Part shown: piece after piece, positions 19,218-21,234 of the stretch
Numbering within the stretch: position 1 is the first letter of the stretch
Layout of the letters: every line of letters starts with the position of its first letter
Assembly: GCF_026004055.1 (NCBI RefSeq)
Contig: NZ_BPIJ01000003.1
Coordinates: forward strand, 344,406 to 408,405
DNA length: 64,000 bases
Direction of reading: 5' to 3'
DNA from: Meiothermus sp.
GTDB taxonomy: Bacteria; Deinococcota; Deinococci; Deinococcales; Thermaceae
Position numbers and translations under genes: made by a program
Notes under the pieces: model-generated
The model's database searches: none
What the model was told of the DNA's origin: nothing
The model's input: the letters and a program-made list of their open reading frames with translations, nothing else

Positions 19218-19323
19218 GTTTTGCAGTTTACTCCAGGAGGCCAGGGGCCGCCCAAACGAAGAAAGCTGTGTCGCCTTTCCCACCCATACGCTGGGCATGT
19301 GCTAACGAACTCCGAATCTAGCA

Positions 19324-19351
19324 TTACAGACCCGCTGCGAAGGGGTATAGT
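19324..19351 (+). promoter_or_regulatory. Putative promoter of the 86-residue protein gene
   Basis: -10 TATAGT at 19346-19351 with a -35-like ATTACA/TTACAG about 17 bp upstream. It stands 68 bp before ATG 19419. Confidence 0.45.
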
Positions 19352-19418
19352 TTTTTTCGAGACAAAGCCATCTACCCGAGAGGGGCTGCCCCGCACACCT
19401 GGGCTTGGAGGTACAAAG

Positions 19419-19679
19419 ATGAGCGAGTGGCTGCGCTGGTCGGATCTCGAGGCCCAGATACCCTTCCACGAACTACCCGCCTTCCACCGGGCTTTTCTCA
19501 AACTGCACCGGCCCGAGCTGTCGGCCGATACCCTACCCTTGCGACGGGTGCAGCAATACGTGAACCAAACGCTGCAATCGCTGGCGCTCGAGGGAAAAGC
19601 CCGGCGCGTGGACGAGGATTATGAGGTAAAGCCCGAACTGATCCCTTATTCCTACCGGGCCCTGTGGCACCAAAGCTGA
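19419..19679 (+). CDS. Hypothetical protein, 86 residues
   Basis: Small soluble, probably helical protein (MSEWLRWSDLEAQIPFHELP...). The start ATG 19419 is supported by GGAGG 7 bases upstream and a promoter-like sequence at 19324-19351. The open frame continues upstream to 19221, but that part looks non-coding. No motif recognised; aromatic and Leu/Arg-rich, with predicted amphipathic helices. It is a single gene followed by hemC after 163 bp. Confidence 0.65.
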   Translation: MSEWLRWSDLEAQIPFHELPAFHRAFLKLHRPELSADTLPLRRVQQYVNQTLQSLALEGKARRVDEDYEVKPELIPYSYRALWHQS

Positions 19680-19842: not shown

Positions 19843-20736
19843 ATGCGCGTTATCGTAATTGGGGCCAGGGCAAGCTTGCTGGCACAAGCCCAGACCCGCT
19901 GGGTGGTAGAACGCTTGAAGGAAAACTGGCCCGAAACCGAGTTCAAAATACGCACCATACAATCCAAAACCGCCTCCGAAGCAGGTGCCATCGAAGCCCT
20001 GCGGCAAGCACTTAGCAAGCGAGAGGTAGATATTGCGGTGTATTCGCTCAAACACCTGCCCACCCAGGAGGTGGCCGGGATCAACCTGGTGGCTGTGCCC
20101 AAGCGGGTTGAGCCCCGCGAGGCCCTGGTAGGCCGGAGCGCCAAGCGACTGGAGGAGCTGCCCAAAGGGGCCGTGGTGGGGGTCAACAGCCTGCGGCGCA
20201 GGGCCCAGCTGCTGGCGTACCGTTCCGACCTCAACATCCGCGACCTCGAGGGCGACGTGGACGACCGCCTGGCCGCACTCGGAACCGGCGAGTACGACGC
20301 CATGATCATCGGTGCGGCCAGCCTGCTGCGGCTAGACCTGAGAAACCGCATCGACCAGTTAATCGACCCCGAAATCGTGCTGCCCGCGCCCGGCCAAGGC
20401 GCTTTGGGCCTCGAGGTACGCCAGGGGGACGACTGGGCCGAGGAGCTGGCTTACAGCCTCAATCACCGGGCCTCTTTTGTCCGCACCACCGCCGAGCGGG
20501 CCTTCCTGCGGGCCCTGGGAGCGGGGGATGGCTGTGCAGCCGCCGCGTTGGCCACCTTAGCAGACGACGATAGCTTGCTGCTGCAAGGCGTGGTAGCCTC
20601 GCCCGATGGGCGCGAGCTCATCCGGGCCGAGATCGAGGGCGATGCGGAGGAAGCCGCCGAGCTTGGACACGACCTGGCCCAGGACTTGCTGGCCGAAGGC
20701 GGGCGTGAGATTTTGGGCTTGGTACAGGCTCGGTAG
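19843..20736 (+). CDS. hemC: Divergent hydroxymethylbilane synthase (porphobilinogen deaminase)-like protein
   Basis: Clearly of the HemC fold: [20 protein letters not shown] (residues 116-124), [13 protein letters not shown] (181-193) and Cys231 in the position that carries the dipyrromethane cofactor. However, the active-site block normally VHS(L/M)KD reads VYSLKH (67-71), so the catalytic aspartate (Asp84 in E. coli) is His71. The flexible segment before it (usually containing GKGLFTKE) is missing, and RGNV is EGDV. It could be a working variant or a non-catalytic paralogue. GAGG sits 5 bases before the ATG and TAATAT lies upstream. It is followed by a Fur-family gene. Confidence 0.8.
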
Positions 20737-20841: not shown

Positions 20842-21234
20842 ATGGGAATGAAACGTTTGACCAAGCAGCGCAAAGCCGTCCTCGAGGTGGTTCGCAGTGC
20901 CAAGGGCCACCACCCGGATGCTGCTTGGGTGTACACCGAAGTCCGCAAGCAGGTACCCAGCATCAGCCTGGGCACGGTCTACCGCACCCTGGACGCCCTA
21001 ACCGAGGAAGGCTACCTGGTTCCGCTCTCCCGCCCCGGCGAGGCCCTGCGCTACGAGGCCAACCTGGACGGGCACCTGCACATGGTCTGCCGCAAGTGCA
21101 ACCGCTTTTTCGACATCGTGCAGCCCCTGCCCGACCTTTTGAGCGAGGTCAAGGCCAGGTACCCCGCCTACCACATTGAAGACGTGCAGGTCGAGTACCA
21201 CGGCATCTGCCCCCAGTGCCGCGCTCAGATGTAG
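20842..21234 (+). CDS. Fur-family metal-responsive regulator (PerR-like)
   Basis: 130-residue Fur/PerR/Zur family protein. The N-terminal winged helix spans about residues 4-70 (recognition region ISLGTVYRTLDAL), then the dimerisation domain with HLHMVCRKC (77-86) and CPQC (123-126). The two CxxC pairs form the structural zinc site, and the histidines could bind the regulatory metal. It is short, as in PerR-type members. It follows hemC by 105 bp, which would suit peroxide or iron control of haem synthesis, but no operator was identified. The last 10 bp overlap the convergent hydrolase gene. Confidence 0.88.
   Translation: MGMKRLTKQRKAVLEVVRSAKGHHPDAAWVYTEVRKQVPSISLGTVYRTLDALTEEGYLVPLSRPGEALRYEANLDGHLHMVCRKCNRFFDIVQPLPDLLSEVKARYPAYHIEDVQVEYHGICPQCRAQM

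Follow-up and report, generated by a model that had tools for sequence, protein, structure and literature searches.

Does a HemC homologue without the catalytic aspartate of its family still act as a hydroxymethylbilane synthase (HMBS, porphobilinogen deaminase) and, if it does not, for what is it kept? This question is raised by a hemC-like gene in a 64,000-nucleotide stretch of Meiothermus DNA, hereafter the window. HemC is a textbook enzyme and is used to infer haem competence from genomes. The gene is an open frame of 297 amino acids plus a stop, and its product matches both PF01379 (1.1e-52) and PF03900 (5e-14), scores 248.2 bits against TIGR00212, for which the cut-off is 164, and is thus a HemC homologue over its whole length, with all three matches above their cut-offs. 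The gene and its altered active-site positions are as follows:

19843 to 20736, + strand: hemC-like gene, the putative HemC pseudoenzyme, assigned from domain matches, a common clade with Thermus HemC and purifying selection
19963 to 19995, + strand: shortened active-site lid, residues 41-51 (E. coli columns 57-62 are gaps)
20053 to 20055, + strand: codon of His71 (CAC), at the aligned position of the E. coli catalytic Asp84
20248 to 20256, + strand: Glu136-Gly137-Asp138, aligned with E. coli Arg149-Gly150-Asn151
20527 to 20535, + strand: Asp229-Gly230-Cys231, with Asp229 at the E. coli Cys242 position in an ungapped alignment with Thermus HemC

Compared with E. coli HemC, the window protein carries D84H, R149E, N151D and an exchange of the cofactor cysteine for aspartate, and retains R11, R131, R132, R155, R176 and R232 (E. 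coli numbering) together with the hinge PGQGAL. An earlier note on this DNA had described an open HemC-like frame that reads SLKH at the catalytic motif, lacks the lid and has EGDV in place of RGNV, with the PGQGALG and SLRRRAQ blocks remaining, and the alignment bears out this description, placing His71 at the position of E. coli D84 and gaps at the lid columns. The note had also regarded Cys231 as the remaining cofactor cysteine, and this part does not stand: in the gap-free alignment to Thermus HemC, the cofactor position is occupied by Asp229, and Cys231 corresponds to E. coli position 244, two residues further on. K83, D84, R149, N151 and R155 are invariant in all 65 canonical rows counted and C242 is present in every canonical row of the alignment, whereas the window protein has His71, Glu136 and Asp229 at positions 84, 149 and 242. 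In the part of PMC3945110 that deals with these residues, E. coli HemC D84A and D84N are inactive, R149H is detrimental, and D99 and R167 of human HMBS correspond to D84 and R149; the residue table of PMC7907807 lists D99 variants to G, H and N with porphyria references. The positions changed in the window protein therefore equal those of human D99 and R167 variants linked to acute intermittent porphyria, but the human variants are disease alleles of the only enzyme, whereas the window-type changes have become fixed throughout a clade in which an intact copy is also present. Judged by its residues, the window protein has almost certainly lost HMBS activity.

The intact copy lies in the same genome (G000), which contains two PF01379 matches, the window gene on contig C3 and another on contig C1. 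The C1 hemC is canonical, with VHSYKDLP, RGNV and GGCQL all present, and adjoins a hemA frame and a putative hemD frame, the frame between this operonic hemC and its neighbours being read as hemD from its place and sequence. Single matches to hemB and hemA were found in the genome, both close to the C1 hemC, so that HemC is the only one of these three enzymes for which the old version was kept as a second copy. The operonic copy is presumably the working enzyme. The earlier note had wavered between a paralogue, perhaps a regulatory one, and rearranged chemistry; the second, canonical hemC that it envisaged exists on C1 beside hemA and hemB and favours a paralogue, and the rearranged chemistry is weighed below. 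Some operonic hemC frames of family f5 (e.g. L157:3933-6191) span 700-753 amino acids from stop to stop and are possibly HemC-HemD fusions.

The two copies were compared by identity, phylogeny and gene order. Over full-length matches, identity to the window protein is 60-63% for Thermus HemC, against 35-38% for the operonic HemC of genera g1, which includes the window, and g2. HemC rows were drawn from 141 frame hits, of which 98 were kept after removal of duplicates, two weak rows and short pieces, and 74 of the 98 entered an IQ-TREE analysis under LG+C20+F+G4, with near-duplicates and two frameshifted Thermus rows dropped. The degenerate copies of family f1 form a clade (18 rows, 100/99) that is sister to functional HemC from Thermus and f4 (node 100/98), and the operon-type HemC of g1, g2, f3 and f5 forms a separate clade (27 rows, 100/100); here g4 is presumed to be Thermus, f4 Marinithermaceae and f5 Trueperaceae. 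The order hemC, fur and a Mur-ligase-like gene is common to Thermus, f4 and g2, and in g1 the fur cluster lies downstream of hemC at 14 of 17 loci, among them the window; of the three without it, one is truncated by a contig end. In the window, the neighbour is:

20842 to 21234, + strand: fur-family regulator, an ancestral neighbour downstream of hemC, assigned from PF01475 and shared gene order

Given the grouping with Thermus and the shared hemC-fur order, to which the Thermus-type residues R19, W29, Y204 and R214 can be added, the window gene is taken to be the vertically inherited, original Thermus-type hemC of the lineage, and the operonic hemC to be a newcomer, or an older duplicate that won. 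The history appears to be the reverse of the usual one, in that it is the degenerate gene that falls with Thermus hemC, and the operonic gene that stands apart. Thermus HemC shares with the window protein its high identity, gene order and these four residues, but none of the catalytic residues examined is missing from it, and no other HemC was found in Thermus genomes. The canonical hemC of Calidithermus (L090, L100) is not of the Meiothermus operon type and falls in a loose group with HemC of Hydrogenedentota (92/77, long branches), which suggests that it may be another replacement.

Around the window gene, a promoter scan returned no promoter-like match, and a terminator scan returned a single terminator-like match, where shuffled sequence gave 2.0 on average. 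A small open frame without a Pfam match lies upstream, at 19221-19679 (+). A functional link between the window gene and fur is weakened, since this neighbour is ancestral, standing also by the functional hemC of Thermus, and is separated from the hemC-like gene in G015, where the two lie on different contigs and the hemC-like gene is still open. Distant fur-family matches with one in-frame stop were seen at G000:C1:214530-214907 and G015:C63:9923-10300.

The sample comprised 111 genomes, seemingly without Deinococcus. A degenerate copy is present in 21 of the 22 f1 genomes of g1-g3, the Meiothermus side, and none of the 21 copies contains a stop. The sole exception is G008, in which the matching contig stops short of the gene, so that loss of the gene was not concluded. 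Sequencing error or frameshift is ruled out by these open degenerate copies in 21 genomes, and error at D84 and R149 in particular by the invariance of both residues in 65/65 canonical rows and by the 17 g1 copies, which share His or Tyr at position 84 and Glu or Gly at position 149. Position 84 is His in 12 and Tyr in five of these copies, position 149 is Glu in 16 and Gly in one, and positions 151 and 242 are Asp in all 17, so that neither D84 nor R149 occurs in any of them. A GDxC motif is found in 16 of the 17, the shifted cysteine (Cys231) being missing from one g1 copy (L116) and from the Calidithermus and g2 copies (L117-L120). The losses of catalytic residues differ between genera: the Calidithermus copies have Y84 and a changed R131 (C131), the g2 copies keep D84 and have K83R, R149K and R155Q without the cysteine, and the two f3 copies keep D84 and have lost R149 and the cysteine. 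A single HemC match was found in 25 of the 28 g4 and g5 genomes; in two more the match is split over two frames, and the last, a genome 65% complete, has no match. The two split genes, in Thermus-like G029:C1:1923118-1924010 (L133) and G038:C1:120431-121329 (L134), break at a short run of G with fewer letters than its counterparts in the compared relatives, and are probably sequencing artefacts.

Selection on the copies was estimated by the Nei-Gojobori method from pairs with dS of 0.1-1.5. The median dN/dS is 0.107 for the g1 degenerate copies (134 of 136 pairs), 0.124 for Thermus hemC (298 of 300 pairs) and 0.230 for the operonic copies (164 of 190 pairs, Calidithermus included). As many pairs have a high dS, the paired comparison of dN within the same genomes is the safer one; it covered 17 genomes of g1 and g2, with Calidithermus omitted, and yielded values for 134 of 136 pairs. 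The degenerate copy has a lower dN than the operonic one in 133 of these 134 pairs, which are non-independent, and in 7 of 8 disjoint pairs, and a lower dN/dS in 103 of 113 pairs.

An AlphaFold2 model of the window protein has the HemC fold over its whole length (pLDDT 75.2, pTM 0.73). Its closest structure is E. coli HemC 2ypn (Z 27.6), the top 22 VIA rows are HMBS structures without exception (Z 25.3-27.6) and the first structure other than HMBS follows at Z 11.5, indicating that the predicted fold is the three-domain fold of HMBS. The likeness to HemC as defined by TIGR00212 and the E. coli structures 1pda and 2ypn thus extends to the whole three-domain fold, the PGQGAL hinge and the arginines; the difference from the E. 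coli protein lies in D84H, R149E, N151D, the Cys to Asp exchange and the shortened lid, and in the presence of a canonical HemC elsewhere in the genome. The two-lobed domains 1-2 also resemble type II periplasmic-binding-protein-like domains, such as LysR effector domains and ArgBP (Z about 10-11.5), with 9-16% identity in the rows shown, a likeness of fold only. The window protein has therefore lost its catalytic residues and kept its fold under purifying selection, the combination expected of a pseudoenzyme, and its inactivity is what we infer from these residues.

To determine where the constraint lies, conservation in the cleft was compared with that in the rest of the protein by a permutation test, which ignores the relatedness of the rows. 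In functional Thermus-type and operon-type HemC, 0 of 5000 permutations were as low as the observed value. The cleft is also more conserved than the rest in the g1 degenerate copies (16 of 5000), the effect is weak across all 21 f1 copies (443 of 5000), and in f5, one row set of which (A2) holds 23 of 27 rows, the cleft is no more conserved (2764 of 5000). The g1 cleft keeps R9, R118, R119 and R142 in 17/17 copies and K70 and R163 in 16/17, and has newly fixed N115, D138, G157 and S160 in 17/17 and E136 in 16/17. Two further sites are kept in Thermus-type HemC, functional and degenerate alike:

19897 to 19935, + strand: Arg19 to Glu31, helix 1 with W29-P30-E31 (R19 and W29 in 81/81 Thermus-type rows)
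20452 to 20484, + strand: Tyr204, His208 and Arg214, around the domain 2-3 hinge (Y204 and R214 in 81/81, H208 in 78/81)

W29 occurs in 0 of the 34 other rows. These conserved residues (R19, W29, Y204 and R214) may form a partner surface or an internal contact that holds the domains together.

Degenerate Thermus-type HemC is also present in families f3 and f5 of the same phylum. Profile searches found a full-length Thermus-type protein in 27 of 39 f5 genomes and a fragment in one more, and no Thermus-type match in 11 of 39 f5 and 2 of 4 f3 genomes, 9 of these 13 being more than 90% complete. Of the 27 f5 genomes with a full-length degenerate copy, 16 also have a full operon-type HemC. The match in one f5 genome, G095, was reported with a stop at its end. 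Phylogenetically, the f3 and f5 copies join functional HemC of f2 (97/75) and not the f1 copies. A tree constrained to hold every degenerate copy in a single clade is worse by 20.4 log units, with an AU p of 0.0497, a borderline result for groups that were chosen after the tree was seen; taken with the shared gene order, it favours two separate losses, one of which would have occurred in f1 and the other in f3/f5. In all 27 f5 degenerate loci (L144-L179), metK is found directly upstream in the same orientation, within about 410 bases of the frame, although some of these loci are near-identical (L173 and L174 have the same values), the 27 are not 27 independent cases, and only part of metK was matched in L161 and L176. 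An EF-G-like gene lies downstream on the opposite strand in 21 of the 27 loci.

In eight genomes of this second lineage, the degenerate HemC is the only PF01379 match: six of genus g22 (91-98% complete, with G092 in a single contig), G107 (89%) and G057 (91%). Neither hemB nor hemA gave a match in these eight, the search for hemA having covered 19 genomes. G077 also lacks matches to hemA and hemB and was left out of the eight, being 72% complete. Incompleteness could explain single absences but hardly all the g22 absences together. The degenerate HemC of the f3/f5 lineage therefore seems, from these gene inventories, to outlive tetrapyrrole synthesis and, as the eight genomes keep the protein with neither hemA nor hemB found, the f3/f5 proteins are unlikely to have a role linked to haem synthesis. 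G089-G094, G057 and G107, which are without detectable hemA, hemB or canonical hemC, are possible haem auxotrophs.

That the window protein is a non-working HMBS is strongly supported by its sequence, and with moderate confidence the gene is regarded as a displaced enzyme kept as a pseudoenzyme for a non-catalytic role. The operonic HemC, beside hemA and hemB, would have taken over the supply of hydroxymethylbilane synthase, and the original Thermus-type hemC no longer encodes the lid, D84, R149 or the cofactor cysteine. The Thermus-type protein would already have had, or would have gained, a non-catalytic job that depends on the folded body and outer surfaces rather than on the cleft; the likeliest such job is in protein-protein contact or scaffolding, centred on helix 1 of domain 1 and the domain 2-3 hinge. 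The placement of this job outside the cleft is the weaker part of the argument and is drawn mainly from f5; against it, the g1 cleft is conserved above the rest, and ligand binding or altered catalysis there is possible. A related and more tentative proposal is that Thermus-type HemC always had a second, tetrapyrrole-independent function, which, after synthesis had passed to an operonic HemC, would be the sole reason for its retention at least twice in parallel, even after loss of the pathway, and which in f5 would lie with MetK or SAM metabolism, metK adjoining the gene in 27/27 loci. It is also conceivable, but doubtful, that the protein is a regulatory or sensor subunit of haem synthesis whose cleft binds porphobilinogen, a dipyrrole or hydroxymethylbilane without turnover and which would signal to the active HemC, HemD or HemA, or modulate one of them. 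Such a subunit would account for the above-background conservation of the g1 cleft, with most carboxylate-binding residues kept and others newly fixed, and for the fur-family gene next door, but that gene is an ancestral neighbour common to functional Thermus hemC and lies on another contig in G015, R131 is changed in the Calidithermus copies and R155 in those of g2, and the f3/f5 counterparts are retained in genomes in which neither hemA nor hemB was found.

The rearranged chemistry of the earlier note, in which His71, or Tyr71, together with Cys231 would drive a changed pyrrole reaction or some other reaction in the same cleft, is improbable. It agrees with the conservation of the g1 cleft and with the GDxC motif in 16/17 g1 copies, but position 84 varies between His and Tyr within one genus, Cys231 is not shared by L116, Calidithermus or g2, and the losses also include R149, the lid and the aligned cofactor cysteine. 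A slow, low-level HMBS that serves as a back-up is very improbable: although the protein scores above the TIGR00212 equivalog cut-off and keeps some carboxylate-binding arginines, D84, R149, the lid and the aligned cofactor cysteine have all gone. Equally little probability attaches to a decaying relic heading for loss, or to DNA kept only for a neighbour's promoter. Combinations of lost residues that differ by genus, and f5 and f3 genomes without the gene, would be in keeping with decay, but a dN/dS of 0.107 and slower change than in the operonic copy indicate constraint at the protein level, no stop interrupts the 21 f1 copies, and the G015 gene is open though fur is on another contig.

In literature searches that covered titles and the starts of abstracts, nothing joining Meiothermus with porphobilinogen deaminase or hemC was found, queries on hemC paralogues gave unrelated matches only, and a query on a catalytically inactive HMBS paralogue gave an ochrophyte match only; no degenerate bacterial HemC was recognised among the matches listed. 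A HemC homologue that scores above a curated equivalog cut-off and is almost surely not the enzyme could cause automatic annotation to misread the haem pathway, a risk that extends to the eight genomes in which the degenerate HemC is the only HemC match and hemA and hemB were not found. The retention of a degenerate core enzyme in two lineages offers a testable case of an enzyme that outlives its reaction, and would point to a second role of HemC.
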